Shown here piece after piece: positions 7,126-42,628 of a DNA stretch of 64,000 bases. A program made the position numbers and the translations under genes. The notes beneath the pieces were generated by a model. That model was not told where the DNA came from. It saw nothing but the letters and a program-made list of their open reading frames with translations, and did no database searches. Source of the stretch: a virus; the IMG/VR virus record IMGVR_UViG_3300020438_000013, positions 1 to 64,000 of that record; one strand, written 5' to 3'. Position 1 is the first letter of the stretch, and the number at the start of each line of letters is the position of its first letter.

Positions 7126-9126
7126 TTAAATTGTTCTAAAAACATCAATTCTGTGGGAAGCTACTGCATACTGAGCAGCAAAAGTTCCGATTCCAGAACT
7201 ATTTTCTGAGATTTTCATGTTTACTCTTCCGCCCTGCGGGCCATGTATTACATTTTCTAACGATGGGTTAGCGACATCCGAAATATTTAAAATCGCGTAT
7301 CTGTCGTTCCCACCTCCGGCATTATAACCAATTGCTAGAGCATTATTACTAGAGCTCATTCCTCCACCGAAAAATCGGACTGTACCAGTAATGCCGAGTG
7401 ATGCCGGGGTTATTGTTTGAGTTAATGAGGGACTAGATGGATTGCTTATATCGTATACATGAACAGAACCAGTAGGGTTGACTGTGCTGTTATGATTACC
7501 GACCTCGCCGATAAACATAGTAGTTCCGACAATCTGAACTCCACCCGCACCATTCATAGCATATCCGCCGAATGCGTTTTCTCTATTCGCCTCCGGCGCG
7601 TCCGGCGATGTTAGTACTGATAAGAAAGATCCAGAATGGTCAAATAGATGCACTCTACCATTCGCTCTTTCTTCTGGGGCCCCATTTTCGTTTTGTGGTT
7701 GACCGCCCCAAGTATCGTTGAAACCTACAAGAGCCACAACAGTATCAGATAACTCTCCGTCATATCCATACGGATGGGCGTTATGAGATGATGTGTGCCA
7801 GAATGGTTGCCCGCCACCGGAACCTGTCGCTAGAGTTGTGTATGCAAATGGAGAGAGAGAAGTTACTTCAAACAACCACCAGTTGAAGTTTGCCATTGTT
7901 AAAATTTTATTTCCCTTTACTTGAGTTGTGTAGACATCGTGATTAGATTCATCAATATATCCATACAAATTGCCGTTAGCAGGATTTAATACCGGCACTC
8001 CCGAAACTCCTTTTTTCCCGACATACATAGTTTCGGTTGCATCCGCTTGATTGCTATAAGATGCCAAACTATTGGTTGCACTACTTGACCACAATACATT
8101 CGCAGATCCATATTGTAACGCGGATCCGCCGTGACCGGAAGTGTCTGATATGTCAAATGCAACAATGGTAGTTGGATGTGTTCCTGTTGGAGCAGTACTA
8201 GCGATCAAAATATCACCAGCAAGGACGATATTATCCCCAACTCCCTGGCCACTTTCCCAATTTGGGATTTGAATCTCTGGAGTGTTATCCAAACCAGACC
8301 AATTGGGTACTACTACGAAAACTAATGTAAAACTAGATGCAGAACTTGTTGCGACATTAACAGAGTCATCTGCAGAAAACGCAAGAGTAAATGTTGCGGG
8401 ATTAGATGCGTGTGGTGTAATTGTGAATACGTTATTATTCTGTTCAACTGTAGTTCCGTTTAATGCACCAGAAGTCACTGAATGTGAAAATGTTACTGGA
8501 TCATTCTCTGGATCTGTAGCGGTCATTGTGATAACTGTAGGCGTCCCATCAGTCGCAAGTTCATATGTTGCATTGTTTCCTGATATTGTTGGTGCAGTGT
8601 TGATTAATGCGACCGCATACCAACCGTCTGCAGTTTTGATGTATAAGTTATTGTTTGATTGGACAACCGCTTGATCCCCAGCACTCGCACCAGCAGGCAA
8701 ATCCCCCACTGTCGCAACAACTTGTAGTGCAGCTGATGTCGGAGTAGAATATGAAACTACGCCGTCATTATAGGACAAATCTCCAGAGACACTTAATGCG
8801 GGCTGAACACTATTTGCGTTTAGGAATTTATTTCCGCCTTCTGTCAGATGATCTGCAGAAGAAACTCCGCCCATATTTCCTGCTCTGTCTCTCAGTTCAT
8901 TAATACCATCGGCAATTTCTACTAGATCATCTATAGATGCACTAGGAATTGCAGCAGCCATTTGAGTGTCTAAGTCTGTTTCTACATCTGCATCATCGAC
9001 AAGACCAACAAATCTAGCAGACTTAGCGAGTCTTCCTAGATCTCTTGGAGATGTGCTAACACCGACTCGGTTTCTAATACGAGTCTTCATGTTAGTCTTT
9101 GAGTTTTCTAAATTAGTATTAGACAT
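7126..9126 (-). CDS. Tail fibre/adhesin with docking module, Ig-like domain and propeller-like C-terminus
   Basis: 666 aa. The N-terminal ~90 residues (MSNTNLENSKTNMKTRIRNR...) are almost identical to the next gene upstream (9149-10999). Residues about 105-275 are also nearly identical to it, including DGWYAVALINTAPTISGN and a cadherin/Ig-like domain (TATDPENDPVTFSH). The C-terminal ~380 residues differ completely and carry repeated beta-rich blocks (VVALVGFNDTWGG, VQIVGTTMFIGEVG). This shows domain swapping on a fixed shaft. Confidence 0.8.
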   Translation of the reverse strand: MSNTNLENSKTNMKTRIRNRVGVSTSPRDLGRLAKSARFVGLVDDADVETDLDTQMAAAIPSASIDDLVEIADGINELRDRAGNMGGVSSADHLTEGGNKFLNANSVQPALSVSGDLSYNDGVVSYSTPTSAALQVVATVGDLPAGASAGDQAVVQSNNNLYIKTADGWYAVALINTAPTISGNNATYELATDGTPTVITMTATDPENDPVTFSHSVTSGALNGTTVEQNNNVFTITPHASNPATFTLAFSADDSVNVATSSASSFTLVFVVVPNWSGLDNTPEIQIPNWESGQGVGDNIVLAGDILIASTAPTGTHPTTIVAFDISDTSGHGGSALQYGSANVLWSSSATNSLASYSNQADATETMYVGKKGVSGVPVLNPANGNLYGYIDESNHDVYTTQVKGNKILTMANFNWWLFEVTSLSPFAYTTLATGSGGGQPFWHTSSHNAHPYGYDGELSDTVVALVGFNDTWGGQPQNENGAPEERANGRVHLFDHSGSFLSVLTSPDAPEANRENAFGGYAMNGAGGVQIVGTTMFIGEVGNHNSTVNPTGSVHVYDISNPSSPSLTQTITPASLGITGTVRFFGGGMSSSNNALAIGYNAGGGNDRYAILNISDVANPSLENVIHGPQGGRVNMKISENSSGIGTFAAQYAVASHRIDVFRTI

Positions 9127-9148
9127 TATTGTTTCCTATTATTTGATA

Positions 9149-10999
9149 TTAACCCATTGAAACAGCACGGCCGTCAACTGAAATCTTGACTTCGTTAGAA
9201 CCATCTAAGTCGTAAACGTAAGTAGTGCTGGTATACTTCGTACCAACAACAATCTTACTATCGTGAATTGCAACATAGCTACCAAACTGATCACTGTCCG
9301 CAGTATCACTGCCCATGATCTTAATCTCGTTAGTTCCATCTAAATCGTAAACGTACACGGATCCACCATAAAAAGCGCTACCTCTCTCATGAGGTGCGCC
9401 CACAACGATCTTGTTATTTCCGACTGCAACTGAAGTACCAAACCTATCGTCATTCTCAATATCACTAGAAGAGATCTTAAGTTCATTAGTTCCATCCATG
9501 TCATAAACATAAACGGCTCCGGATTGCCAATCCGGATCGTCTTCATATGGCACACCAACAACGATCTTGTTATTTCCAATTGCAAGTGCTTCTCCAAACC
9601 TGTCATTCGCTTGGGCATCACTTGCAGTAATCTTGATTTCATTAGTTCCATCAAGATCATAGACATAAACTGAACCGGAACCGTTTGCATTGTCATCATC
9701 ATGAAGGGCCCCAACAGCGACCTTATTGTGACCAACTGCAATCGACCATCCAAAATAATCGTCATCTGCTGTGTCACTCGCTTGTAGTATGACTTCGTTA
9801 GAACCATCTAAGTCGTAAATATATGCGCGGCCGCGCCAGCTTCCGCCGACATTATACCCATATCCACCAACAGCGACCTTATTGTCTCCCACTGCAACGC
9901 AGTGACCAAAACTACTTTGGACTTGATCACTTGTAGTGATCTTGATTTCATTAGTTCCATCCATGTCATAAACATAAACGGCTCCTCTAGTAAAGTTTCT
10001 TTTGTGTGCGCCCACAACGATCTTGTTATCTCCAACTGTAACTGAGTGACCAAACTCATCTCCCGCTGCAGCATCACTTGCGCCGATTTTGATTTCATTA
10101 GTTCCATCTATGTCATAGATATAAACGGCTCCGGAGTCGTTTCCGTTATCATCGTCTTTACTTGAACCAACAACGATCTTTGGGACTACGAAAACTAATG
10201 TAAAACTAGATGCAGAACTTGTCGCGACATTCACTGAGTCATCTGCAGAGAATGCTAATTCGAATGTTGCTGGTTGCGATGCATGGGGAGTCACTGTGAA
10301 CACATTGTCATTCTGTGTCACTGTGGTTCCATTCAATGAACCAGAAGTTACTGAATGCGAGAATGTTACTGGATCGTTTTCTGGATCTGTAGCGGTCATT
10401 GTAATAACTGTGGGAGTTCCATCAGTCGCAAGTTCATATGTTGCGGTGTTTCCTGATATTGTTGGTGCAGTGTTAATCAATGCAACAGCATACCAACCAT
10501 CTGCAGTTCTAATATACAAGTTATTGTTCGCAGTAACTACTGCTTGCGTTCCTGCAGTTGCGCTTAGTGGTAAATCTCCGACTGTTGCGACAACTTGAAG
10601 TGCAGCCGCAGTAGGAGCGGTATATGAAACCACACCATTGTCATAGGATAAATCCCCAGAAACACTTATTTCTGATTGTACGTTTGCTGCTTTGAGAAAC
10701 TTATTGCCAGCCTCTGTCAAGTTATCTGTTGTTGCAACTTGACCCATATCTGCAGAACCACCTCTGAGTTCTTTAATTCCTTCTGACATTTCCACAAGTT
10801 CATCTACAGATGCAGCAGGAATCGCAGCGGTCATTTGAGTATCAATATCCGTTTCCACTTCAGCATCATCTAAAAGACCAACGAACCTTGCAGACTTCGC
10901 AAGTCTACCCAAGTCTCTTGGAGTTTGACCAGCTTGGACTCGGTTTCTAATACGAGTCTTCATGTTAGTCTTTGAGTTTTCTAAATTACTATTAGGCAT
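9149..10999 (-). CDS. Fibre/adhesin with integrin-like seven-bladed FG-GAP propeller
   Basis: 616 aa. Residues 1-90 are the docking module, 105-275 the linker and Ig-like domain shared with 7126-9126. Residues about 276-616 are seven tandem ~48-residue units of the form IVVGAxxxDDxxGxVYVYDLDGTNEIKI...FG..VAVGDNK. Seven units match a closed integrin-alpha-type beta-propeller. Loops such as DDDNGND and DDDNANG fit calcium-binding DxDxNxD sites. A receptor-binding function is inferred. Confidence 0.85.
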   Translation of the reverse strand: MPNSNLENSKTNMKTRIRNRVQAGQTPRDLGRLAKSARFVGLLDDAEVETDIDTQMTAAIPAASVDELVEMSEGIKELRGGSADMGQVATTDNLTEAGNKFLKAANVQSEISVSGDLSYDNGVVSYTAPTAAALQVVATVGDLPLSATAGTQAVVTANNNLYIRTADGWYAVALINTAPTISGNTATYELATDGTPTVITMTATDPENDPVTFSHSVTSGSLNGTTVTQNDNVFTVTPHASQPATFELAFSADDSVNVATSSASSFTLVFVVPKIVVGSSKDDDNGNDSGAVYIYDIDGTNEIKIGASDAAAGDEFGHSVTVGDNKIVVGAHKRNFTRGAVYVYDMDGTNEIKITTSDQVQSSFGHCVAVGDNKVAVGGYGYNVGGSWRGRAYIYDLDGSNEVILQASDTADDDYFGWSIAVGHNKVAVGALHDDDNANGSGSVYVYDLDGTNEIKITASDAQANDRFGEALAIGNNKIVVGVPYEDDPDWQSGAVYVYDMDGTNELKISSSDIENDDRFGTSVAVGNNKIVVGAPHERGSAFYGGSVYVYDLDGTNEIKIMGSDTADSDQFGSYVAIHDSKIVVGTKYTSTTYVYDLDGSNEVKISVDGRAVSMG

Positions 11000-11018
11000 T
11001 ATTGTTTCCTATTTTGAA

Positions 11019-13025
11019 TTAACTGTACTTAAACACTGCACCAGAGTTGACATCACCATTAGACGCAGGGTATTTTCTTGAAGATATATACACAGAATCT
11101 TCTGTTGCCTTGATATGACTTCCGAATTGTCCATCTGGTTTACTTCCGTATTCTTGTGGAGCTTCGATTGTTTTAATCAGAGTTGCATTATTATTTTCGT
11201 CAAGATCAAATATATAAACCCTACCATCACCTTGCGAATGGCCTGGGTCTGATACAAAGAGAGTTTCTCCTTGTAGTTCAACAGTCGCTCCATACAACCG
11301 ATAGCCTTCACTTGTTCCTTGTGATGGATTGGTGATGTTTGCTACGGGATTTCCGCTCACCCTATCGAAAACTACAACGGCCCCCTCGGTTCCTTTCGCT
11401 GAGGGACTACTCAAGACTAATCTGTCTCCAGAAAATGCCATTCTTCTAGTTCCGTCGCCACCATTAACTTCTGGGGATTGACCAGTGCCGCCGCCGGCAC
11501 GACCAAAATATGCACCCTGATAATTTGTGCTTCTTAGGGAAGAGTGAGCAGTCTCTGCATATTGGAATAAATTGCCGTTTGCTCTATGGTGAATTGATGC
11601 TCTTCCAGTATTGTTATACCAAGGATCATTGCCCGGATATGATACTGCAATGTAATCTCCAGATATGATAACAATATCTCCAAAATATTGATAACCCGTA
11701 TTTTGTGGACAATATATAGTATAACTATACGAAGGACTTGATGGATCGCTTACATCATATCCGTAGGCTCTTCCCTGTTTATTGTAACCTCCATGATAAT
11801 ACTCGTGCGCTCCAATTACTAACAAATCTCCGTCCATAGAAACACTTGATCCGAATTTGGGTACTCCGCTATTGCCCCCTTCTGGTTTGTCTATTACTGT
11901 TCTAGATGTAGTAAATCCTGCGTTGAAGTCATATAGATAAACCTTATTATTATAAGGATCTCCCACCGCAAGAATATTTCCGGATCCTGTTATATCAGTC
12001 GCGAAAGTACTCGAATTCGGTTCAGCAACTTGGCCTACGAAAGTGCCGTCAGATTTATTTAATACTGATACCGCATTTCCCCATTGTTTCTTGACTGCGA
12101 TGTAGTCGGTCATAACTGCGATTTGTTGACCCCAGTTCTGGCCATCAAGATCGCTAACTCCGGTTACATGGTCTTTAAACCAAGTTCTTGTGATTCCTGT
12201 CCAGTCCATTCCAAACACTACTGTAAACTCCGAAGGAGTTGTTGCGGTTACATTAGTTCCATCTGATGCACTAAATGTTATTGAAAATGGTGCAGTATCT
12301 GCAGTGTTAGAACTTCCTGTGATTGTGAAGACATTACTTGATTGTGAAACTGTAGTCCCACCCAAAGCCCCTGCAGTTACTTGGTGACTGTATGTGATAG
12401 GATCTCCTTGTGGATCAGTAGCAGATAATGTGATAACTGTATCACCGCCAGGAGTCAATGAATAAGAACCATCCGGATTTGTATTGAAACTTGGCTTCTG
12501 ATCTACAAGACCTACACCAATCCAAGACGCACCAGTGAAGACATAAAGTTTTTTGTTCTCTTCTACTATTCCTTTTGCACCAGCAGTAACTCCACTTGCT
12601 GGGAGATCCGCGACTGTCGCATAAACTGTTAATGCATCTGGTAATGCGGTATAAGATAAGACTCCAGTTCCGGAATCATAAGATAAGTCTCCGGCTGCAC
12701 TGAATGAACCCCTGACTCTATCCTGAGTAACATAAAGGTTACTAGAACCTTCTGCAACCATAGTGGATGTGGGGACTCCAGCACCTTCTGGTGTTCTGAG
12801 TTTCTTAACACCAAATGCGAGTTTTTCTAAATCTTCTGGTTCTGCCGATCCTGCAAGTGAGGATACTTTCGTATCTAATGCAGTCTCTAGATCGGCATCA
12901 TCGTCTAGGTTTGCTTTTTCTATTGAACGAGACAATTTGACAATCTGATCTGCAGTAGTAGATGCTGATATTGCTGCAAGTAGCTTTGTCTTGAGTGTGT
13001 TTCTTGAACTGAATGTATTGCCCAT
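11019..13025 (-). CDS. Fibre/adhesin with divergent docking module, Ig-like domain and propeller-like C-terminus
   Basis: 668 aa. The N-terminus (MGNTFSSRNTLKTKL...) is a diverged copy of the docking module (LDDDADLETALDTK). A DLPASGVTAG / KLYVFTGASW block and an Ig-like domain (SATDPQGDPITYSHQV) follow. The C-terminal ~380 residues contain repeated VSMDGDLLVIGA, YIAVSYPGND and RLVLSSP units typical of beta-propellers. First gene of the minus-strand fibre array, with a consensus late promoter 44 nt upstream. Confidence 0.78.
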   Translation of the reverse strand: MGNTFSSRNTLKTKLLAAISASTTADQIVKLSRSIEKANLDDDADLETALDTKVSSLAGSAEPEDLEKLAFGVKKLRTPEGAGVPTSTMVAEGSSNLYVTQDRVRGSFSAAGDLSYDSGTGVLSYTALPDALTVYATVADLPASGVTAGAKGIVEENKKLYVFTGASWIGVGLVDQKPSFNTNPDGSYSLTPGGDTVITLSATDPQGDPITYSHQVTAGALGGTTVSQSSNVFTITGSSNTADTAPFSITFSASDGTNVTATTPSEFTVVFGMDWTGITRTWFKDHVTGVSDLDGQNWGQQIAVMTDYIAVKKQWGNAVSVLNKSDGTFVGQVAEPNSSTFATDITGSGNILAVGDPYNNKVYLYDFNAGFTTSRTVIDKPEGGNSGVPKFGSSVSMDGDLLVIGAHEYYHGGYNKQGRAYGYDVSDPSSPSYSYTIYCPQNTGYQYFGDIVIISGDYIAVSYPGNDPWYNNTGRASIHHRANGNLFQYAETAHSSLRSTNYQGAYFGRAGGGTGQSPEVNGGDGTRRMAFSGDRLVLSSPSAKGTEGAVVVFDRVSGNPVANITNPSQGTSEGYRLYGATVELQGETLFVSDPGHSQGDGRVYIFDLDENNNATLIKTIEAPQEYGSKPDGQFGSHIKATEDSVYISSRKYPASNGDVNSGAVFKYS

Positions 13026-13068: not shown

Positions 13069-13076
13069 TATTTATA
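13069..13076 (-). promoter_or_regulatory. T4-type late promoter for the fibre array
   Basis: TATAAATA on the minus strand, 44 nt upstream of the start at 13025, at the head of the six-gene fibre array. Confidence 0.75.
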
Positions 13077-13114: not shown

Positions 13115-13330
13115 ATGCAAAAAAAATCTAAGATAATTTCTATCGCAGACTTTAATGCAGAAAAACGGAAAGATAAAGAATTAATCTACTACAATGAACA
13201 ATTATCTAAACTGAATTTACGACTATCTATTATCATGGCAGAGATAAAATTGACCAAAGAGATCATTGACATGATAGAAAATGAAAAACTTATAGACTTC
13301 GCAAAGAGTCTGGATCACGATACGGAATAA
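13115..13330 (+). CDS. Small coiled-coil protein of unknown function
   Basis: 71 aa, preceded by AGGAG. Lys/Glu/Ile-rich with heptad-like spacing over residues 25-65, suggesting a short coiled coil. It lies alone on the plus strand between two minus-strand blocks. Its 3' end overlaps the 3' end of the cyclase gene by 16 nt, convergently. Function not recognised. Confidence 0.6.
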   Translation: MQKKSKIISIADFNAEKRKDKELIYYNEQLSKLNLRLSIIMAEIKLTKEIIDMIENEKLIDFAKSLDHDTE

Positions 13331-15141
13331 ATGTTGATGGGTTCTTCTTTTCCTTTAACCTTTATTGTGCCTATAGATTTCTTATTGTAAGTATCTGGTA
13401 GTTGCGAAACTGTGTACTCAGACACTATTGTTTTATAATTTATAAAATCCCCCCTTGCTGCAGTGGATTCAAGCCGAGCGGCGAGGTTGACTGCATCTCC
13501 AATAACCGAATAGTCAAATCTGGATTCACTACCCATGTTACCGACAATACAATCACCGGAGTTAATACCAGTGCCAACATTAATGTCAGGCAAATTGCGC
13601 TCTTTGTAGACTCTTTTAAGTTCATTTACTTCCTTTTCTATTTCTATGGATGATTTGACTGCGAGCTCCGCGTGGTTCTCACACGGTAATGGAGCATTCC
13701 AGAATGCCATTATGCAGTCTCCCATATATTTATCTATTGTACCTCCATTGTCTAGGATAATGTTGGTCATTTTATTTAGAAATTCGTTGACCAACTCCAC
13801 CAATCCTTCGGGATCATCGTTGTTTTTATAGTGTTCTGAGATAGGAGTGAATCCGCAAATGTCCATAAACAGGAATGTCATCTCCTTTCTCTCTCCACCC
13901 AACTTGAGCAACTCCGGATTCTTCTGTAAAAGTGCAACTTGTCTTGGGTCAAGGTATGTCTCAAATTGTTTCTTAATTTGTTGACGCAACTTGAACTGTC
14001 TATAAAACTCAATGAACGCAGTATGACCAAATATCAGTATGCTTCCCAAGAGTATCATTACTGGACTGAATAACATATAATAGGTATTGAATAGATACCC
14101 AGAACCAAGAACTGATCCAGTAGACAATAAGAGGAATACCGCACCACTCAACCACATAGGAGTTTTACGCAATAGAAGGACAAATAATCCTCCCATCAGA
14201 ACCATTGTAAGAAGTTCTAAGAGGGCAAAATAATCTGGTCTAGTGATGACAGTGTTCTTTACAATCGTCTCTATGAGGTTCGCTTGTACCTCATGAGGGA
14301 ACATTGCGCCCACTGGAGTACTGATCGTGTTGGAACCAGCAAATGTAGGCCCTATAATTACGATACTACCTTCTGGTATCCACACATTACCTAAATCTGA
14401 TACTGATACTCTCTGAAACTTATTCCAATATGAGTTGTATACCGCACCGTTGTCTGATGTGGTGATAGGTTTGTAGGCAGGAATTCTCACCCACTCTATT
14501 CCTGTTTCAGTTGTCTTTATCTGGTAAGAAATATCTCCCACTGCTACTCTTATAGTTTCTAATGCAAATGATGGAAATATCTTGCCCTGTGCTCCGACAA
14601 TGATTGGAACTTCTCTTACTACACCATCTATGGACGGTTCTGCAGCAAGTGCGCCAAATCCATTGATGAATTGTGCAAGTTCCGGAATAGGAGTAAGAAT
14701 CCCCTTGTAATCTTTAACAAAATCTATTGCATCTCTGGGCCCTAATGTAGTTGTCCCGATATGCATCTGTGGTTCTAAATCGTAATCATCTATAACCTGT
14801 GTCGCAGCAACTATTGGTTTTCTTGCAAATGCTTCTGCGAGAAAGATATCTTGAGTTCCTCTTCCCTTCTCCGAGAGAAGAACATTCAGTGCGATGAGGT
14901 TATTATCTGGTAGTTTGTTGATTTCTTTTGCGAGGATATCACGATCCCACGGCCATCGACCATTCTTCTTTATGGATTCTTCGTCTATGTCTAATAGAAT
15001 GATTTGTTCTGACTTATTCTCTTCATGGTTTCTCTGGAGTAAGTCGAAGTAGTTGAGTTGAGTTGCTTCTAAGATGTATGGATTGAGAACTTTAACCAGT
15101 ATACATAATAAAAAAGTAATTCCAATGTGGTATAATTTCAT
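13315..15141 (-). CDS. CHASE2-domain class III adenylate cyclase
   Basis: 608 aa. One N-terminal membrane segment (about 5-25), a CHASE2 extracytoplasmic sensor (about 30-300, with a GRWPWDR motif early), three more membrane segments (about 310-390), then a class III nucleotide cyclase domain (about 415-605). Both metal Asp residues (FLFMDICGFT and KYMGDCIMAF), the base-specifying Lys in IDKYMGD, and the Asn and Arg of VNLAARLE are present, so it looks catalytically complete. Lys with Ser (DYSVIGD) fits ATP over GTP. It starts at the stop codon of the curlin-like gene (ATGA overlap), so it is the last gene of the curli-like operon. Expected product: cAMP in the host in response to a periplasmic signal. 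Confidence 0.9.
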   Translation of the reverse strand: MKLYHIGITFLLCILVKVLNPYILEATQLNYFDLLQRNHEENKSEQIILLDIDEESIKKNGRWPWDRDILAKEINKLPDNNLIALNVLLSEKGRGTQDIFLAEAFARKPIVAATQVIDDYDLEPQMHIGTTTLGPRDAIDFVKDYKGILTPIPELAQFINGFGALAAEPSIDGVVREVPIIVGAQGKIFPSFALETIRVAVGDISYQIKTTETGIEWVRIPAYKPITTSDNGAVYNSYWNKFQRVSVSDLGNVWIPEGSIVIIGPTFAGSNTISTPVGAMFPHEVQANLIETIVKNTVITRPDYFALLELLTMVLMGGLFVLLLRKTPMWLSGAVFLLLSTGSVLGSGYLFNTYYMLFSPVMILLGSILIFGHTAFIEFYRQFKLRQQIKKQFETYLDPRQVALLQKNPELLKLGGERKEMTFLFMDICGFTPISEHYKNNDDPEGLVELVNEFLNKMTNIILDNGGTIDKYMGDCIMAFWNAPLPCENHAELAVKSSIEIEKEVNELKRVYKERNLPDINVGTGINSGDCIVGNMGSESRFDYSVIGDAVNLAARLESTAARGDFINYKTIVSEYTVSQLPDTYNKKSIGTIKVKGKEEPINIYSVS

Positions 15142-15860
15142 TGTTGCGTTACGCTGATGCTACATCCTGATACGGTTTGACATAACTGAGATATCGTATA
15201 TGATTGTGCAGTTGTGCCTTGTTGTGATAATGATAGGTTAGTTCCATACGAACCATCTAATGTTATGGTTGCAGAGTGGGCTGCTGAACCAGTTTGTTCT
15301 ATACTTGCAGTGTTCCCTGAGTTATATATTGTGAGATCTATACTCTTATTAGTATCGCTTTCTTGTGCAGTCCATACAGAGTTATTGTTTCCTGCAAGAT
15401 GTAAATCGTATGTATGAGATCCACTTCCATCGCTCTCTTGATAACCTACGACAGTATTACTATTACCAAGTATCTCAAATGACGCAGTATGTCCGCCATC
15501 TCCGACTCCATCATATGTAAATGAGGTGTCGGTATTATCTGTTAGAGAGCCTCCCTGACCGAATCTAAGAGTATTATTATTTCCATTTAACTCATCAATA
15601 TTTATGGTGTTTTGATTAGTGACATTTTTCTGATATAGAGCCATTGTCCAGTCAGAGCCAGTGAAGAAGGAACTTCCGTCTTTCATCTTGATTTCGTTAT
15701 TGTTTCCAATTTGGTCTACAGTAAATGTGAGGTCACTTCCGCTCTGGACTATGGTTAATTTATTGTCATCCGCATAAACATTACATGACATCAATACTGC
15801 ATATATAAACAATACTAATATGCCCAGATGAGTTCCTGTAATCTTATGATAGAATGCCAT
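15138..15860 (-). CDS. Curlin-like secreted repeat protein (CsgA/CsgB-like)
   Basis: 240 aa. An N-terminal hydrophobic segment (about 12-31) ending near VYADD looks like a signal peptide. The rest is spaced Asn/Gln repeats of curlin type (VDQIGNNNEI, IDELNGNNNTL, HLAGNNNSVW, IEQTGSAAHS, LSQQGTTAQS), compatible with a stacked amyloid beta-solenoid. A Cys pair lies near the C-terminus (CQTVSGC). It lies between FecR and the cyclase in a tightly packed operon that also encodes CsgG and CsgF. Assignment rests on repeat pattern and context. Confidence 0.72.
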   Translation of the reverse strand: MAFYHKITGTHLGILVLFIYAVLMSCNVYADDNKLTIVQSGSDLTFTVDQIGNNNEIKMKDGSSFFTGSDWTMALYQKNVTNQNTINIDELNGNNNTLRFGQGGSLTDNTDTSFTYDGVGDGGHTASFEILGNSNTVVGYQESDGSGSHTYDLHLAGNNNSVWTAQESDTNKSIDLTIYNSGNTASIEQTGSAAHSATITLDGSYGTNLSLSQQGTTAQSYTISQLCQTVSGCSISVTQQ

Positions 15861-16964
15861 TTATCCCCCCTGTTGGCGGATTGTTATAGTATTTCCTCCA
15901 TCACCTAGTTTGATGATCGAAGGCCGTTCGTCTGTATAAGTATATATATCAAAATTAGCATCTGCCTCGAATCTCAAACTAATGACGCCAGTAACTTGAC
16001 GATAAAACCATACAGTCCCTGCTGCCTTATCTACGATGGTGTTATATTGTGTTTGAGGGTCATATCCCAACATTGTTCCCTCTATGTTCACCCTACCAGT
16101 TTTCTTCTTGAGACTTAGAGGGTCTCGTATATCTAATACGACTAGTAGGTCTTGTAAGAAGTCTACATTAAGAAGATCTATGTCTAATTCGCTATATTCG
16201 TCCAGAGTTTCGCCTATGTCCTTGAAGTAGTCTCTCTCAAGTTCATTGAATTCCAAGAAATCTACGTCAAGTATATTAGAATCCGAACTATCTGATTGTT
16301 CTTCTTCTATCGCCTCTTCTATTTCATCTGGCGGAGATACGATAAACATATTGTCTATTTGTGCGACTGTGATGTTTTCTACTTTTACTGGTTGGACGGG
16401 CGGACTAGATATAGTTGCGACAGATGTTGCTTCGAATGCTTCGTCTAGGACTACTGTCCCTGCTTCATTGGTGACTGTTATCTCTCCTGAGGCTGCGCCA
16501 GTTGCGTCTGGTAGTAGAATAATAAGAGATCTACCTAGTTCATCTATAGTAGTGGTGAAGTCAGTTCCCCTGATACCAATAGTGGCAACCGGAGTATTGA
16601 TTCGTATGTTGGATTTATTCATCAATGCAAGTTTACCAGAGGCAAACCTCGCGGTTCCCTGTGCAAAGTTGAGAACCATTTTAGACTTGTCTGGATTGGG
16701 GTCATAGATGACAGAATCTATGACCACTTCACTATGTTCTGTGAGACGCAAGTTTGACTCATCGAGGAAGGTGATAGCCATACGCCCATTATTAGTCACG
16801 GCAACATCATTCAACAGAATATCCAGACCGGAAGATACCGATAAGTCGTTGGCAGATCTACTTATAGATGTCTCGCCTGTGAATTCTGTTATGTCGCCAA
16901 TAGTGAATCCAAAACAACAAAGAATACCGCTAGTCGCCAGTATCTTTTTGAACAATCGTAACAT
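15861..16964 (-). CDS. FecR-domain protein
   Basis: 367 aa with an N-terminal hydrophobic export signal (about 5-22). Residues about 45-170 match the FecR domain (VSSGLDILLNDVAVTNNG, RLTEHSEVVID, GTARFASG, and the signature VATIGIRGTDF). FecR proteins are periplasmic or envelope sensors; a FecR gene next to a CHASE2-cyclase gene is a common bacterial arrangement. The C-terminal part is acidic, then beta-rich. It overlaps the upstream curlin-like gene by 35 nt and abuts the downstream one with no gap. Confidence 0.85.
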   Translation of the reverse strand: MLRLFKKILATSGILCCFGFTIGDITEFTGETSISRSANDLSVSSGLDILLNDVAVTNNGRMAITFLDESNLRLTEHSEVVIDSVIYDPNPDKSKMVLNFAQGTARFASGKLALMNKSNIRINTPVATIGIRGTDFTTTIDELGRSLIILLPDATGAASGEITVTNEAGTVVLDEAFEATSVATISSPPVQPVKVENITVAQIDNMFIVSPPDEIEEAIEEEQSDSSDSNILDVDFLEFNELERDYFKDIGETLDEYSELDIDLLNVDFLQDLLVVLDIRDPLSLKKKTGRVNIEGTMLGYDPQTQYNTIVDKAAGTVWFYRQVTGVISLRFEADANFDIYTYTDERPSIIKLGDGGNTITIRQQGG

Positions 16965-17670
16965 TTGCGCTATTTGAGTTTAGTTGTAGATCGATGTAAC
17001 CCTTACATGATGCGATTCCACTACAGGTTCCAGAAGTCTGAGTAAAACTACCAGTTCCTCCAGTTCCCGTCCAGTTAACCTTCATGTAATGACCAGTAGA
17101 ATCTGATTGGACTGATGTGAAATCGTTATTTCCACCAATAACATCCCAATCCCATGTGGCGTTAGCTGAGTTTATGTCTACATCAAAATCATTATCATCA
17201 CCACCAGTGATATCTAAATCGAAATTTAGGTTATTTGCTGCTGCTGATCCTGCTATGTCTAAGTCCATGTCACTATTACTTGATGTAATATCGACATCCA
17301 TATCCATATCATCCGCATCGTTGCTGCCTGCTCCGATATTCCAGTCCCAAGTGTTGGTGTTACCTGTCCACTTAAGGTCTATCGTAGACGTATCTAGGAT
17401 AATTGGCCCGAATAAGTCGTTGTTGTTACCAACTTGGTCTATATTCATCGTCAATGTGGCAGCGGTAATCAACATATCTGTTGCGACTACTCCACTAGAC
17501 AATGTACCTCCGACTTTGTTTCCGTAACCAAACTGGTCAAACGTAGCAATAAATGTATTACCTGATTGTTGTATCCAGATTTCGTTATCTGTCGCTGCTG
17601 CGCCGAACACACTCGACGGCAATAATATAGCCATAACAAAAAATAACATTTTGTTAATTTTATTAAGCAT
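16930..17670 (-). CDS. Curlin-like secreted repeat protein, Asp-rich
   Basis: 246 aa with a signal peptide (about 1-24, ending at SSVFGAA). The N-terminal part has curlin-like units (IWIQQSGNTF, FDQFGYGNKVGG, IDQVGNNNDLFG). The middle is a run of alternating Asp/hydrophobic strands with DMDMDVDI, DMDLDI and DFDVDI cores, which resembles a metal- or calcium-binding beta-solenoid. A Cys pair lies near the C-terminus (CSGIASC). It overlaps csgG by 8 nt. Probably a subunit exported through CsgG. Confidence 0.72.
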   Translation of the reverse strand: MLNKINKMLFFVMAILLPSSVFGAAATDNEIWIQQSGNTFIATFDQFGYGNKVGGTLSSGVVATDMLITAATLTMNIDQVGNNNDLFGPIILDTSTIDLKWTGNTNTWDWNIGAGSNDADDMDMDVDITSSNSDMDLDIAGSAAANNLNFDLDITGGDDNDFDVDINSANATWDWDVIGGNNDFTSVQSDSTGHYMKVNWTGTGGTGSFTQTSGTCSGIASCKGYIDLQLNSNSANVTIVQKDTGD

Positions 17671-18568
17671 TGCTTTCTTCCTCTCTGTCGTATTCAGAAG
17701 ATGGAGTTCTGCCCTCTATCTTCCAAAATCCTCTGTCGTTACCCTGATATATCATCTCTAAGACTGCTGCTTCTATTGCGGTTCTTGTCGCATAGGTAAC
17801 ACTCTCATTTTCTGATACACCATCTTCCAACTCTACCAGTTTGGTGTCCATGTCTATAAATTTGAACACATCAACGCCTCCACCCACTGATAGTATAGTC
17901 TTTCGACTTTGTACATTCAACAATACCTCTCCTGTGAGTGTGCTAACTGCCCTTAGACTTATCACTACAGAGTCTCTCCTGTATTGTCTCGTAAATCCTA
18001 TTCCTAAGTATCTTGCTCCCTTACCTCCAGTTTCTATGTTGGTATCGTAGCCTATAATACCTCCCTCTATTATCATTCCAGCAAATAACAATGGTTGTAT
18101 ATTTGCCTTTGGACTATCTTCTGTCTGATGTTTTTTTCTTGTAGAGAGTATTATCTGTCTTTCTCTTACCAGATGATCTATACCATTTCTCTCTACAACC
18201 CGAAACCATCTACCCTTCCCTGCAGTTTTAAGCGCATCTATTAACATCTCTGTTGCGCCCTGAGTAACCGCTGTCGAGAAAGATGCGACATTATCCTGTC
18301 TCTTTCTTTGTCCTGTCTTGTCTGCGAAGTTATATACTGCGACAATAGGCATTTTCTCTGCTGGAGGCAAGTTCAGAAGCTTCTGATAACTAGGAAGTTT
18401 AACAACTTCCGGTTCCTCCACGCACTCCAGAAAATCCATCTTTCGCCATTCCCCTTCTTGATTCTTGAAGGGGGCCAACTTACACCCCAATCCCTCTTTG
18501 GTAAAAAGAGGAAGACTAGAACATCCCATCAGAAGAATGGACATTATGAGTAATGCCGTTATCTTCAT
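17663..18568 (-). CDS. csgG: CsgG-like curli secretion pore lipoprotein
   Basis: 301 aa with a lipoprotein signal (ILLMGCSS, Cys at 16). The CsgG domain spans about 60-280: VAVYNFADKTGQRK, FSTAVTQGATEMLIDAL, FRVVERNGIDHLVRERQII, GGIIGYDTN and a C-terminal ATRTAIEAAVLEMI helix. CsgG forms the outer-membrane nonameric pore that exports curlin subunits. It overlaps csgF by one nt and the curlin-like gene by 8 nt. Length (301) is close to the bacterial family (about 277). Confidence 0.92.
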   Translation of the reverse strand: MKITALLIMSILLMGCSSLPLFTKEGLGCKLAPFKNQEGEWRKMDFLECVEEPEVVKLPSYQKLLNLPPAEKMPIVAVYNFADKTGQRKRQDNVASFSTAVTQGATEMLIDALKTAGKGRWFRVVERNGIDHLVRERQIILSTRKKHQTEDSPKANIQPLLFAGMIIEGGIIGYDTNIETGGKGARYLGIGFTRQYRRDSVVISLRAVSTLTGEVLLNVQSRKTILSVGGGVDVFKFIDMDTKLVELEDGVSENESVTYATRTAIEAAVLEMIYQGNDRGFWKIEGRTPSSEYDREEESNA

Positions 18569-19050
18569 TAGAAACCTCCAGTGCCTATAGGTATTTCTAT
18601 GACAGTTTCTGTTCCATCTTCATCTACGATGGTCATTTTAATCACATCGCCGTCTTCGCTTTCGACTACTTCGTATGTGACTATATTCCCTTCTAACGCA
18701 AATGTACCAAAGTTAGTACCTTCTTCGTTACTGAACATATTATCCACTAATTGTTTGGATAATTGTGCGTAGATTCTACTTTCTAAGTTTCTTATAAACT
18801 TAGCGAGGGTAGTATTATCTGCCTCTCTTTCTGCCGACCTTTTGGCTGCTTCTAGAGATTCTTCTATTTCCTGTTTTCTACTAAACTGTTGGTTCTCTAT
18901 TGTTAGATAGTGCGAACCAGTTCCTCTACCAGAAAACGATGGAGATTTGAACTGATGTACAATTTCATCTCCATGTACTGGTGCAGAAACCGGAAGTGTC
19001 AAAAATCCGACAATTAAAATCAACACCATTTTAAATAGTGCAGTATTCAT
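18568..19050 (-). CDS. csgF: CsgF-like curli assembly factor
   Basis: 160 aa with a signal peptide (about 1-28). The mature N-terminus has the CsgF signature (VHQFKSPSFSG), which in the family inserts into the CsgG pore. A helix (NTTLAKFIRNLESRIYAQLS) and a C-terminal beta domain (DEDGTETVIEIPIGTGGF) match the family order. It directly precedes csgG and overlaps it by one base. Confidence 0.88.
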   Translation of the reverse strand: MNTALFKMVLILIVGFLTLPVSAPVHGDEIVHQFKSPSFSGRGTGSHYLTIENQQFSRKQEIEESLEAAKRSAEREADNTTLAKFIRNLESRIYAQLSKQLVDNMFSNEEGTNFGTFALEGNIVTYEVVESEDGDVIKMTIVDEDGTETVIEIPIGTGGF

Positions 19051-19075
19051 ACCAAACTCCCTCTATCTCTAGAAA

Positions 19076-19378
19076 TTATTTACCTTTTTCTTCTAATATT
19101 TCTAGAGCTTGTTTCTCTTTCTGGTCTTCGATTATCGCCTCTTTTTCGCGATATTCTAAGACTACATTTACCTTCTGTTGTAATCGAATAAGGTCTTGAT
19201 CCATCATTCTAGTTTGGTCAATAACCCTAATCAACGCCTTGTGCATTGTTCCTAGTGCGACATTTATCTTATTATTGATAAACCACCACACATAGTAAAC
19301 AAAATATCCCATTCCTACTGCCATGATTATGGGAAACCCAAAATCTGATACAGCAGTAGACAACATCTTCATATCCAT
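19076..19378 (-). CDS. Small membrane protein with C-terminal coiled coil
   Basis: 100 aa. One membrane segment (about 12-34, PIIMAVGMGYFVYYVWWF), then a helical coiled-coil region (about 35-100) with a charged end. It is similar in layout and partly in sequence to the protein at 19554-19850. It lies between the late promoter at 19882 and csgF, so it is co-transcribed with the curli-like cluster. A holin or spanin-like role is possible but not shown. Confidence 0.65.
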   Translation of the reverse strand: MDMKMLSTAVSDFGFPIIMAVGMGYFVYYVWWFINNKINVALGTMHKALIRVIDQTRMMDQDLIRLQQKVNVVLEYREKEAIIEDQKEKQALEILEEKGK

Positions 19379-19389
19379 AAATCTATCCG

Positions 19390-19533
19390 TTATCTAAGCC
19401 TGTTTGCTTCTTTCCCATACATCAGTTTTTTTGTGGCACATTTACCACAAAGAGTTCGATTCCATATAAACGTCATTTGCAAGACAGTTCCTCTGAACTT
19501 ACATCCGTGGCATTTAATTAAATCATTATCCAC
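19390..19533 (-). CDS. 47-residue zinc-ribbon-like protein (GTG start)
   Basis: GTG start preceded by AGGAG at 7-nt spacing. The peptide has CHGC near the N-terminus and CGKC 20 residues later, a CxxC...CxxC pattern for one zinc ion. The remainder is basic. It fills the gap between the two coiled-coil membrane protein genes. Another GTG-started mini zinc ribbon is at 40164-40307. Probable nucleic-acid or protein-binding knuckle. Confidence 0.65.
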   Translation of the reverse strand: MDNDLIKCHGCKFRGTVLQMTFIWNRTLCGKCATKKLMYGKEANRLR

Positions 19534-19553
19534 GATCAATCTCCTAAAAAATG

Positions 19554-19850
19554 TTAATCTCTCCTTACGTCGAGTTTCTCATCCTCTATGAAATTTTCTG
19601 CCCTAGCAACTCTATCTATATCTGGTTTTAGTTCCAGTGCGCTACTCACTAATAAATCAATCTTCAATATTTCATTACTCATCACTCTCGCTCTATTTTC
19701 AAGCGATTCCGCAAAACTAGTTAAAGTTCCCAAAGTAGAAATAATTCCGTCCATCAATTGTTTCAGTACTAGCATAATGAAAACACCCATTACCAGAGCC
19801 CCGGCGATTGGTGCGCCCACATCCTTTGCAAATATTAAAAATGCTTCCAT
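19554..19850 (-). CDS. Small membrane protein with coiled coil, paralogue of 19076-19378
   Basis: 98 aa. One membrane segment (about 10-33, APIAGALVMGVFIMLVLKQL), then an amphipathic helix. First gene after the late promoter at 19882, heading the operon that continues into csgF and csgG. Function unknown; holin-like size and topology. Confidence 0.65.
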   Translation of the reverse strand: MEAFLIFAKDVGAPIAGALVMGVFIMLVLKQLMDGIISTLGTLTSFAESLENRARVMSNEILKIDLLVSSALELKPDIDRVARAENFIEDEKLDVRRD

Positions 19851-19881: not shown

Positions 19882-19889
19882 TATTTATA
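19882..19889 (-). promoter_or_regulatory. T4-type late promoter for the curli-like operon
   Basis: TATAAATA on the minus strand, 32 nt upstream of the start at 19850. It is the only consensus late element found upstream of the run from 19850 to 13315 and diverges from the sigma70-type promoter at 19907. Confidence 0.75.
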
Positions 19890-26102: not shown

Positions 26103-26435
26103 ATGGAAACTATATCTCGACCAGAGATACAAGAATCTGACATCGTTGCCTGTATGAAAATGGTTTACGATCCTGAGATTCCTGTCAACATTTATGATCT
26201 TGGTCTTATATACGAAATAAACATATTTCAAGTAGCATCAGCGGTACATATAGTAATGACTCTGACTAGTGCTGGTTGTCCGGTTGCCGGAGAAATGCCA
26301 GAATGGGTTAAGAGTGCAGCATTAATGGCTCATGGAGTGGAAAAGGTAGACGTAGAATTAGTATTCGATCCGCCTTGGGATCTTACCATGATGTCAGATG
26401 AAGCAAAATTAGAACTAAACGTGTACGGTTATTAA
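26103..26435 (+). CDS. DUF59/SufT-type iron-sulfur assembly protein
   Basis: 110 aa covering the complete MIP18/DUF59 domain: DPEIPVNIYDLGLIYEI, VIVMTLTSAGCPVA (the conserved reactive Cys) and VFDPPWDLTMMSDEAKLEL. Members help mature Fe-S proteins (SufT, PaaD). It overlaps sdhB by one base, which suggests it matures the three clusters of the SdhB encoded next. Confidence 0.88.
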   Translation: METISRPEIQESDIVACMKMVYDPEIPVNIYDLGLIYEINIFQVASAVHIVMTLTSAGCPVAGEMPEWVKSAALMAHGVEKVDVELVFDPPWDLTMMSDEAKLELNVYGY

Positions 26436-27154
26436 TGAAAGTAAGTTTATACAGATTCAATCCCGATAAAGATGAAGTTCCATATATGGAAGACTTTGAG
26501 TTCGAAAGACCAGAGAAAGACATATTTGTACTTGATCTTTTACATATGTTAAAGGAAAAGGACTCTACTATAACCTATAGAAGAAGTTGTAGGGAAGGTG
26601 TATGCGGTTCTGATGGTCTAAACATGAACGGCAAGAACGGACTTGCCTGTATAACTCCTTTGTCGCAAGTAGTAAAACGGAATAAACTGGTATTAAGACC
26701 ATTGCCGGGTTTGCCTGTTATCCGTGATCTTGTGATAGATATGACACAATTTTACGAACAATATGAAAAAGTTACACCCTACCTTATTAACAAAGAGCCT
26801 CCCCCGAAACAGGAGAGGTTACAATCACCAGAAGATAGAGAAAAATTGGATGGACTCTATGAGTGTATATTGTGCGCTTGTTGTTCTACAAGCTGTCCTT
26901 CTTATTGGTGGAATCCAGATAAATTCATCGGCCCAGCAGGATTACTTGCAAGTTACCGATTCCTCGCTGATACTAGAGATACAGCGACAGATGAAAGATT
27001 AGACGCATTAGATGACCCATTTAGTGTATTTCGCTGTCGAGGTATTATGAACTGCGTCAGTGTCTGTCCTAAAGGACTTAACCCAACTAGAGCAATCGGA
27101 AAGATTCGATCTATGTTGATTTCTAGACCAAAACAAAAAGCAGCAAATGGATAA
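26435..27154 (+). CDS. sdhB: Succinate dehydrogenase iron-sulfur subunit
   Basis: 239 aa, full length for SdhB. Complete 2Fe-2S motif (RRSCREGVCGSDGLNMNGK...C), 4Fe-4S motif (CILCACCSTSCPSYWW) and 3Fe-4S motif (CRGIMNCVSVCPKGLNP). Quinone-site Pro, Ser and Trp in CPSYWW are kept, but the position equal to E. coli SdhB His207 (CHSIMNC) is Arg here. Sequence is very close to gammaproteobacterial SdhB. It normally carries electrons from SdhA to ubiquinone; SdhA and the anchors are not in the window and would come from the host. Confidence 0.96.
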   Translation: MKVSLYRFNPDKDEVPYMEDFEFERPEKDIFVLDLLHMLKEKDSTITYRRSCREGVCGSDGLNMNGKNGLACITPLSQVVKRNKLVLRPLPGLPVIRDLVIDMTQFYEQYEKVTPYLINKEPPPKQERLQSPEDREKLDGLYECILCACCSTSCPSYWWNPDKFIGPAGLLASYRFLADTRDTATDERLDALDDPFSVFRCRGIMNCVSVCPKGLNPTRAIGKIRSMLISRPKQKAANG

Positions 27155-27725
27155 AATATCAAATTGGTTCGCAATGTCTATGACTAGGTTCTTTCGCCTT
27201 GTCGCAGACACCTTTTTTGCGAAGAGATATGGTCATAGAGCAGTAGTTTTAGAGACAATTGCTGGTGTGCCGGGCATGGTTGCAGGAATGTGGGTTCATT
27301 TACGCAGTTTGCGACAAATGAAGACCGGATATGGGCCCATGATAAGAGAACTTCTTGCAGAGGCAGAGAATGAAAGAATGCATTTGATGTTCTTTATTGA
27401 GATAACTAAACCAAATCTATTTGAGAGACTTTTGGTGTTACTCACACAAGGAACTTTCTGGATGTTTTATTTTGTGTTATATGTGATCTTTCCCAAGACC
27501 GCACATAAAATGATACACTATTTTGAAGAAGAAGCAGTAAAAAGTTATACAGAATACCTGAGAATGGTAGAAACCGGAGAAGTGGAGAACATTCCAGCAC
27601 CAAAACTCGCAATTGAGTATTATGGAATGGATTCCGATGCAAAATTATCAGATCTCATCATCAATGTAAGATCAGATGAGGCAAACCACAGCGAAGTGAA
27701 CCTAAGATATGCAGAAACCAACTGA
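27147..27725 (+). CDS. aox: Alternative oxidase (di-iron ubiquinol oxidase)
   Basis: 192 aa. All di-iron ligands of the AOX family are visible: LETIAGVPGMVAGM (Glu), EAENERMHLM (Glu and His), FEEEAVKSYTEYL (Glu), SDEANHSEVN (Glu and His). Two interfacial hydrophobic stretches lie between. AOX oxidises ubiquinol with oxygen to water without proton pumping. Shorter than plant AOX at both ends but the catalytic core is complete. It overlaps sdhB by 8 nt. Plastoquinol oxidase relatives are known from cyanophages. Confidence 0.94.
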   Translation: MDKISNWFAMSMTRFFRLVADTFFAKRYGHRAVVLETIAGVPGMVAGMWVHLRSLRQMKTGYGPMIRELLAEAENERMHLMFFIEITKPNLFERLLVLLTQGTFWMFYFVLYVIFPKTAHKMIHYFEEEAVKSYTEYLRMVETGEVENIPAPKLAIEYYGMDSDAKLSDLIINVRSDEANHSEVNLRYAETN

Positions 27726-41245: not shown

Positions 41246-41486
41246 AGATCGATTTGACCTAGAACAAGATATCCATCAGTGTTGGTACATAGTAGATGAT
41301 ATCAATATGCTGATGGAATATGTTCTAGACAATCCAAAATTTACAATGCCACCGGAAACAGAAGATGTTCTTGCAAACAAGTTACTGGGCCTAAAAGAGT
41401 TGTATGAAATGAGATTTGATAGGTTATGGAATACTTTTCTAGAATCTCATAATCTCCCTTCCGCTAATAAGGAAAATGTTGAATGA
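41229..41486 (+). CDS. Conserved-looking small phage protein
   Basis: 85 aa. Helical with a DIHQCWYIVDDINMLMEYVL motif that resembles small conserved proteins of T4-type marine phages. Four-base overlap with guaC. Function unknown. Confidence 0.65.
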   Translation: MTKKSKDRFDLEQDIHQCWYIVDDINMLMEYVLDNPKFTMPPETEDVLANKLLGLKELYEMRFDRLWNTFLESHNLPSANKENVE

Positions 41487-42628
41487 TAATTGAAGAAGCA
41501 TTAAAGTATGACTTCGATGATGTTTTGATTCGCCCCAAAAGATCTACACTTACCTCACGCGGCGAAGTACAACTAGAAAGAGAATATCAATTTCGCAATT
41601 ATTCTCCGCCTGCACATTTAAGAACTCCGCCAGAATATCCAGAATTCATTAACATAGGTGAAATTGATGGGTTTGATAGTTTCTCTTGGAATGAGAAACC
41701 TCTTGCTCGCAGAGATTATTCTGGTATTCCTATAATGGCTGCAAATATGGATGGAGTCGGAACTCTATCAATGGCACTGACCCTTTCGAATCTTGGATTA
41801 TTTACTTGTCTCAAGAAGAGTTATAGTTCCGAAGAGTTGATAAACTTTTTTGTAGACAATTCACAAACTGTAGAATCTGTTGCAGTGACTATCGGCATGA
41901 CTCTAGAAGATAAAGAAAAGTTAGAACGAGTGTGTTCTGAAACAGAAATTAAGTATGTCTGTATCGATGTTGCAAACGGATACACTGAAAGTTTCGGTGA
42001 CTATGTAGAAGATATCCGTAATACATTTCCCCATTTGATTATCATCGCTGGGAATGTCGCGACTGCAGATCAGACCGGAGAACTCTTACTGCGAGGCGCA
42101 GATATCATTAAAGTAGGTATCGGGCCAGGTTCTGTATGTACGACTAGAATTAAGACTGGAGTTGGGTATCCCCAGCTTTCCGCAATCATAGAATGTGCTG
42201 ATGCTGCTCACGGTTTGGGCGGTCACATCATTGCGGATGGCGGATGCCGGACTCCAGCTGATATCGCCAAGGCCTTTTGTGCTGGAGCGGACTTTGTTAT
42301 GGCAGGCGGAATGTTGTCTGGTCATGAACAGGGATTAGATCCAGATTCCGAAATAGTTGATGGGAATATCACATTCTATGGAATGAGTTCTAAGACTGCA
42401 AACGAAACACACAATGGCGGTCTCAAAAACTACCGTAGCGCTGAAGGAAGAGAAGTACTGATAAAGTATAGGGGCGATATAGAACCTACCTTACAGGACA
42501 TTCTGGGGGGTCTGAGGTCTACCTGTAGTTATATCGGTGCGAAGAATATCAAGAATATGTCCAAGTGTTGTACATTCATTCGAACTACTCGGCAATATAA
42601 TACTGTCTACGAGCAAAACACCATATAA
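41483..42628 (+). CDS. guaC: GMP reductase (IMPDH/GMPR family)
   Basis: 381 aa TIM-barrel enzyme without CBS domains. Signature GPGSVCTTRIKTGVGYPQL holds the catalytic Cys; IIADGGCRTPADIAKAF and GADFVMAGGMLSGHEQ bind the phosphate; FYGMSSKTANE follows. The CTTR loop and VGYPQLSAIIEC favour GMP reductase over IMP dehydrogenase. It converts GMP to IMP with NADPH and would shift purine pools towards adenine nucleotides, useful for an AT-rich genome. An insert around residues 30-65 is unusual. Confidence 0.88.
   Translation: MIIEEALKYDFDDVLIRPKRSTLTSRGEVQLEREYQFRNYSPPAHLRTPPEYPEFINIGEIDGFDSFSWNEKPLARRDYSGIPIMAANMDGVGTLSMALTLSNLGLFTCLKKSYSSEELINFFVDNSQTVESVAVTIGMTLEDKEKLERVCSETEIKYVCIDVANGYTESFGDYVEDIRNTFPHLIIIAGNVATADQTGELLLRGADIIKVGIGPGSVCTTRIKTGVGYPQLSAIIECADAAHGLGGHIIADGGCRTPADIAKAFCAGADFVMAGGMLSGHEQGLDPDSEIVDGNITFYGMSSKTANETHNGGLKNYRSAEGREVLIKYRGDIEPTLQDILGGLRSTCSYIGAKNIKNMSKCCTFIRTTRQYNTVYEQNTI

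Follow-up and report, generated by a model that had tools for sequence, protein, structure and literature searches.

The 64,000-nt window analyzed here, positions 1 to 64,000 of the IMG/VR virus record IMGVR_UViG_3300020438_000013, belongs to a marine T4-type phage, the T4-type character being an assignment made in the initial annotation and supported by matches to the T4-type genes gp32 and gp59 within the window. On its minus strand it carries a curli-like module (13315-19850) that ends in a gene for a CHASE2-class III adenylate cyclase and also encodes a protein with a FecR domain. The interval given in the initial annotation, 13315-16964, covers only the last three genes; the whole module extends to 19850. 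In the order of transcription it comprises two phrog_18771 small membrane proteins, CsgF, CsgG, a first curlin-like protein, FecR, a second curlin-like protein, and the cyclase. Adjoining genes abut or overlap from csgF onward, and the second curlin-like gene overlaps the start of the cyclase gene by 4 nt, in agreement with the claimed coupling of the cyclase to a curlin-like gene. The features of the module and its borders are as follows.

19882..19889, minus strand: T4-type late promoter sequence TATAAATA, about 35 nt 5' of the module start codon
19554..19850, minus strand: small membrane protein, phrog_18771 copy 1 (E=1e-18), first module gene
19076..19378, minus strand: small membrane protein with a predicted coiled coil, phrog_18771 copy 2 (E=1e-23)
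18568..19050, minus strand: CsgF, 160 residues (PF10614, E=8e-15)
17663..18568, minus strand: CsgG outer-membrane curli secretion channel, 301 residues (PF03783, E=5e-53)
16930..17670, minus strand: curlin-like protein 1, 246 residues (sub-threshold Curlin_rpt match, E=0.22; aligned family; synteny)
15861..16964, minus strand: FecR-domain protein, 367 residues (PF04773, E=1.3e-9; phrog_37870; AlphaFold2 (AF2) model with Foldseek; tail motif)
15138..15860, minus strand: curlin-like protein 2, 240 residues (Curlin_rpt PF07012, E=2.4e-4; syntenic in relatives)
13315..15141, minus strand: CHASE2-class III adenylate cyclase, 608 residues (Pfam; phrog_35576, E=8e-178; PDB sequence matches; AF2 and Foldseek; catalytic residues)
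13069..13076, minus strand: second TATAAATA, 5' of a separate FG-GAP gene group that follows the module

Curlin-like protein 1 is syntenic and aligned with the 'CsgB' of phage HTVC008M and with a curlin-repeat protein of phage Melnitz. Gene content and gene order are shared with HTVC008M (KC465899) and four Melnitz isolates, in whose records the cyclase is already annotated as a cyclase. Phage curli genes were reported in 2020 (PMC7029224), and a viral type VIII secretion system (T8SS) with FecR and adenylate cyclase, expressed in metatranscriptomes and of alphaproteobacterial origin, was described in 2022 (PMC9599517). The cyclase is therefore not a new kind of phage gene, contrary to what the initial annotation had implied. 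The search for cyclases in other T4-type phages that it proposed found them to be common, and at least 599 relatives of the cyclase are present in IMG/VR. The gene is a real, intact member of a known phage module, and the novelty lies in the tail of FecR, in cellular operons of the same composition, and in the linkage of these genes.

The cyclase open reading frame (ORF) matched the Pfam domains CHASE2 (PF05226, E=5e-36, residues 10-318) and Guanylate_cyc (PF00211, E=4e-20, residues 419-601). Its AF2 model, with a mean predicted local distance difference test (pLDDT) score of 83, has the usual topology, with helices at residues 3-37, 305-326, 329-354, and 361-393. Pfam and the model together place a periplasmic CHASE2 domain between an N-terminal transmembrane helix and three further transmembrane helices, the arrangement expected of CHASE2 proteins, followed by a cytoplasmic cyclase domain. 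Pseudomonas aeruginosa CyaB (3r5g) was among the nearest solved catalytic domains in the PDB sequence comparison (E=2e-34), and the catalytic part of the model superposed on it in Foldseek with a TM-score of 0.87 (by target length).

The metal-binding residues D427 and D475 are present in all 83 viral cyclases, as are K471 on the adenine side (83/83) and R556 of the transition-state pair (83/83); their respective partners, S545 and N552, are each found in 82 of 83. Read from the sequence, these six residues form a complete class IIIb catalytic set, as expected for the sensor cyclase with an intact site that the initial annotation put at the end of the operon. The full set is kept in 82/83 viral cyclases, the exception being Melnitz (S545D and N552S); L092, outside the 83 counted, shares both changes. 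In alignments, the position of K471 is also Lys in the adenylyl cyclase CyaB and is Glu in the guanylyl cyclase Cya2, so the predicted substrate is ATP and a guanylyl cyclase identity is disfavoured. On average, the viral sequences share 69% identity with the window cyclase over the catalytic part and 34% over CHASE2; as judged from these alignments, the sensor domain diverges while catalysis stays conserved, which is a pattern of selection on catalysis. A degenerate or vestigial enzyme is disfavoured by the conservation across viral cyclases, and the window cyclase appears to be a catalytically active membrane adenylate cyclase. The Melnitz-type cyclases (L003:9953-12016 and L092:2028-4085) have a C-terminal extension that is present in cellular cyclases too. 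These two are placed differently in the catalytic and CHASE2 trees; domain replacement in Melnitz was considered and set aside, as long-branch effects are possible.

Because a cyclase-anchored set cannot show obligate linkage, scans anchored on CsgG were used as a fair test. Among the CsgG-anchored viral contigs with at least 4.5 kb downstream of CsgG, FecR and the cyclase were both present in 60 of 61, and the lone exception has FecR only. Within this phage group, the cyclase and FecR are near-obligately linked to the CsgG pore. This count describes the group rather than all curli phages, because the best 80 matches per query are near relatives; FecR and the cyclase are not always present in curli phages (PMC9599517). 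Module order was also kept in the cyclase-anchored loci that were long enough to show it.

The same arrangement was found in cells. Two alphaproteobacterial genomes, L087/G001 and L184/G776, carry a CsgF-CsgG-curlin(s)-FecR-CHASE2-cyclase operon; L087 is a Caulobacteraceae metagenome-assembled genome (MAG) with chromosomal flanks, and L184 is a 705-kb contig. With these loci, cellular curli operons that include both FecR and the cyclase are documented, but they are rare, at 2 in about 1,180 genome draws. The abstract of PMC9599517 states that FecR and the cyclase do not lie inside bacterial T8SS operons, while its text notes a similar organization in Alphaproteobacteria. The L087 and L184 cyclases form one clade with the viral cyclases, with support of 1.0 for CHASE2 and 0.675 for the catalytic part. 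The presence of this operon in both genomes makes it probable that all its genes were transferred together. The cyclase could then be a passenger that was gained with the curli operon and has no present function; it was already in two cellular curli operons and may have come along by chance. Its retention with the pore gene in 60/61 contigs, its invariant catalytic residues, and a catalytic part far better conserved than the sensor make this the least probable of the explanations considered. The cellular operons also allow the wiring of the module to be tested without a phage.

Separately, a 20,286-bp MAG-binned contig with the whole module (L084, PAPS01000029.1, a Saprospirales MAG; and L187) encodes a cyclase 95% identical to that of the phage. 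Because IMG/VR lists a viral contig of identical length, the L084 contig looks like a mis-binned phage contig, and for the same reason MAGs with 95% identical copies do not name a host. Tail-tube and cyanophage-like matches were too distant for host assignment.

The second TATAAATA precedes the FG-GAP genes, which suggests that the module ends at the cyclase. Ten copies of TATAAATA occur in the window compared to 5.2 expected, a weak excess taken alone. Within an interval from 150 nt upstream to 30 nt downstream of the first module gene, TATAAATA was found in 24 of 41 loci but in 2.9% of control stretches, and because of this enrichment at the module start, late expression is likely. An Rfam scan upstream of the module for a riboswitch or known RNA (as Melnitz has for tmRNA, transfer-messenger RNA) returned tRNAs only.

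A late promoter sequence would also suit a module that sets lysis timing, with CsgG as a pinholin- or secretin-like pore and cyclic AMP (cAMP) as the timing signal. A role in lysis timing was proposed for the Melnitz CsgGF from synteny and structure models (PMC9004378). That proposal does not mention the cyclase or FecR and assumed that curlins were missing, whereas this phage and Melnitz each have two curlin-like genes. CsgG family members, moreover, are outer-membrane proteins and not inner-membrane holins. On these grounds we consider a lysis timer improbable.

For the FecR protein, AF2 predicts a signal peptide followed by the FecR beta domain; beyond a linker modelled with low confidence lies a C-terminal beta module. 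Strands of this module recur about every 10 residues, and the last, NTITIRQQGG, is curlin-like. In Foldseek, the beta domain of the model resembled the PupR signalling domain (6ovk, E=9e-5). Foldseek also aligned the FecR model with a short adhesin 'cell surface anchoring domain' (5ix9; 63 columns, rmsd 1.4, E=6e-3), a match that makes retention at the surface a role worth considering for the FecR fold.

PMC9599517 names FecR an iron-dependent regulator, and the PF04773 match is compatible with an iron (ferric citrate) regulator governing the T8SS, to which cAMP would be a second input. In its canonical form, however, FecR is partnered by a FecI-type sigma factor and a FecA receptor. Sigma70_r2 (PF04542) was not found in the 98.9-kb phage record or in a 99%-identical, 200.7-kb relative, with positive controls, and FecA was not searched for; iron sensing through a FecI-type partner was rejected on the absence of this domain from both records. 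At its N-terminus the phage FecR also has a signal-peptide-like helix where the canonical protein would have a cytoplasmic anti-sigma domain, and control by iron seems very unlikely.

A motif of hydrophobic-x-hydrophobic-x-Q ends every complete viral FecR (56/56), with the last Gln 0-2 residues from the C-terminus. After redundancy removal, it was present in 24/24 viral FecRs and in 5.6% of shuffled tails; background ORFs had it in 8/710 and 27/1138 cases. Among FecRs near CHASE2 genes on genome contigs, 1 of 45 carried the motif, and that one belongs to the curli operon L087; FecR tails near cellular CHASE2 genes otherwise lack the curlin-like strand. As the motif was defined after the tails were viewed, the CsgG-anchored set, which partly overlaps the contigs of the first 56 FecRs, is the better check, and 113 of its 114 FecRs have the motif. 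PMC9599517 makes no mention of a C-terminal feature on FecR. The viral FecR tail resembles the end of E. coli CsgB (AIRVTQR), a protein whose final repeat, R5, is implicated in binding to CsgF (PMC10192328).

We propose, with a probability of roughly 40%, that FecR senses the state of curlin or the fibre and tunes the CHASE2-cyclase in a late-expressed phage curli module. CsgF and CsgG would make up a pore in the outer membrane through which two curlin-like fibre proteins pass, and FecR would be an envelope protein with a signal peptide and a FecR/PupR-type beta domain whose C-terminal curlin-like strand pairs with curlin or CsgF. Through contact with the periplasmic CHASE2 domain, FecR would report the state of curlin export or assembly, and the inner-membrane class IIIb adenylate cyclase would turn ATP into cAMP in the infected cell. 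The step from FecR to CHASE2 is a reasonable one because genome loci from several groups of bacteria have FecR-domain genes close to those for CHASE2 proteins. This bears out the initial annotation, which had called the two a known bacterial pair; published cases come from Campylobacterota (PMC9239204) and from Burkholderia, where CHASE2 is on a kinase (PMC5192318). The curlin-like FecR strand lends indirect support to another idea of that annotation, namely that exported curlin is what the cyclase senses, while the contact between FecR and curlin is one that we infer. A more specific version, in which FecR and the CHASE2-cyclase form a curli-assembly checkpoint, with the FecR strand captured by curlin or CsgF and its state controlling cAMP in the infected cell, is a tentative possibility. 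If true, the checkpoint would be a phage-carried, and more rarely cellular, second-messenger readout of amyloid export.

Several observations weigh against this proposal. Near the module start, 17 of the 41 loci lack TATAAATA, HTVC008M among them. Neither the 98.9-kb record nor the 200.7-kb relative yielded a cyclic-nucleotide-binding domain; a phage-encoded cAMP receptor was thus rejected for both, and any cAMP effect on the host, including the hypothetical cAMP flood, CRP reprogramming and lysis triggering raised in the initial annotation, would need a host receptor to carry the cyclase output. Because two catalytic positions are changed in Melnitz-type phages, cyclase activity may not be universal. 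The FecR of the cellular operon L184 ends in GSVFILE, without the Q, and contig L334 retains the FecR tail without a cyclase. Curlins often carry the same tail (44/46 CUR2 and 48/65 CUR1), so the tail of about 10 residues may have nothing to do with the cyclase and serve in export or anchoring instead.

The shared curlin tail, contig L334, and the resemblance to the end of CsgB favour the main rival explanation, in which FecR is a structural curli part that does the job of CsgB as nucleator or anchor, without signalling, and a separate cyclase responds to some unrelated cue in the periplasm and acts on the host alone. Against such an anchor stand the FecR-domain genes near CHASE2 in many bacteria without curli (genome loci; PMC9239204, PMC5192318) and the joint presence of FecR and cyclase in 60/61 contigs, and we regard it as rather unlikely. 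Marine T4-type phages give streamlined hosts both fibre export and an apparently active second-messenger enzyme; at least the described hosts, SAR11 and OM43, have no fibre-export system of their own. Together, the linkage and the FecR tail make the purpose of the module, a question since 2020, testable as the monitoring of fibre assembly via cAMP.

Other genes in the window were noted alongside the module. On the minus strand after the cyclase, 7126-13025 holds three large genes. The N-termini of 7126-9126 and 9149-10999 are nearly identical and that of 11019-13025 is related; the remainder of these genes contains FG-GAP or cadherin-like repeats, as in an interchangeable adhesin or fibre set. 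On the plus strand, overlapping genes at 26103-27725 encode a SufT/PaaD-like Fe-S assembly protein (TIGR02945, E=4e-39), the succinate dehydrogenase iron-sulfur subunit SdhB (PRK05950, E=1.5e-107, over the cut-off), and an alternative oxidase (PF01786, E=4e-69). Together they may make up a respiratory bypass carried by the phage. SdhB recurs at 95% in the 200.7-kb relative, and Phage C48C1 alone among phage records has both SdhB (72%) and the oxidase (59%), at separate places. A GMP reductase-like gene of nucleotide metabolism lies at 41483-42628 on the plus strand (PRK05096, E=2e-140, over the cut-off).

Compared to known systems, the phage module shares CsgG, CsgF, and curlin repeats with the E. 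coli csgBAC/csgDEFG operons, which have no FecR or cyclase; conversely, CsgE (PF10627) was not found in the phage record or the 200.7-kb relative, while the E. coli control was positive. The FecR and CHASE2-adenylate cyclase clusters of Campylobacterota (PMC9239204) encode a FecR-domain envelope protein with a CHASE2 cyclase, as here, but differ in having a phosphodiesterase and a TPR protein and no curli. The cellular operons L087 and L184 (GC contents of 57.5% and 52.4%) differ from the phage module in their chromosomal flanks with glycosyltransferases and TonB-dependent receptors, and they have no phrog_18771 genes. Judged from its position, the phrog_18771 pair 5' of csgF probably corresponds to the histidine kinase genes of PMC9599517. 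In this phage the two proteins matched only phrog_18771, with no Pfam match even at E=5; at 98-100 residues and without a Pfam match they are not complete kinases, and a histidine kinase identity was rejected since no kinase domain matched. Among phages, Methylophilales phage Melnitz (MZ577097) has the same order, including FecR, two curlin-repeat genes, and the cyclase, which differs in S545D, N552S, and the C-terminal extension. In the pelagiphage HTVC008M the module is followed directly by the tape-measure gene, in place of the three FG-GAP genes of the window. GC content is 35% at the HTVC008M locus and 39% in the window, and the window cyclase is 44% identical to that of HTVC008M over 98% of its length.

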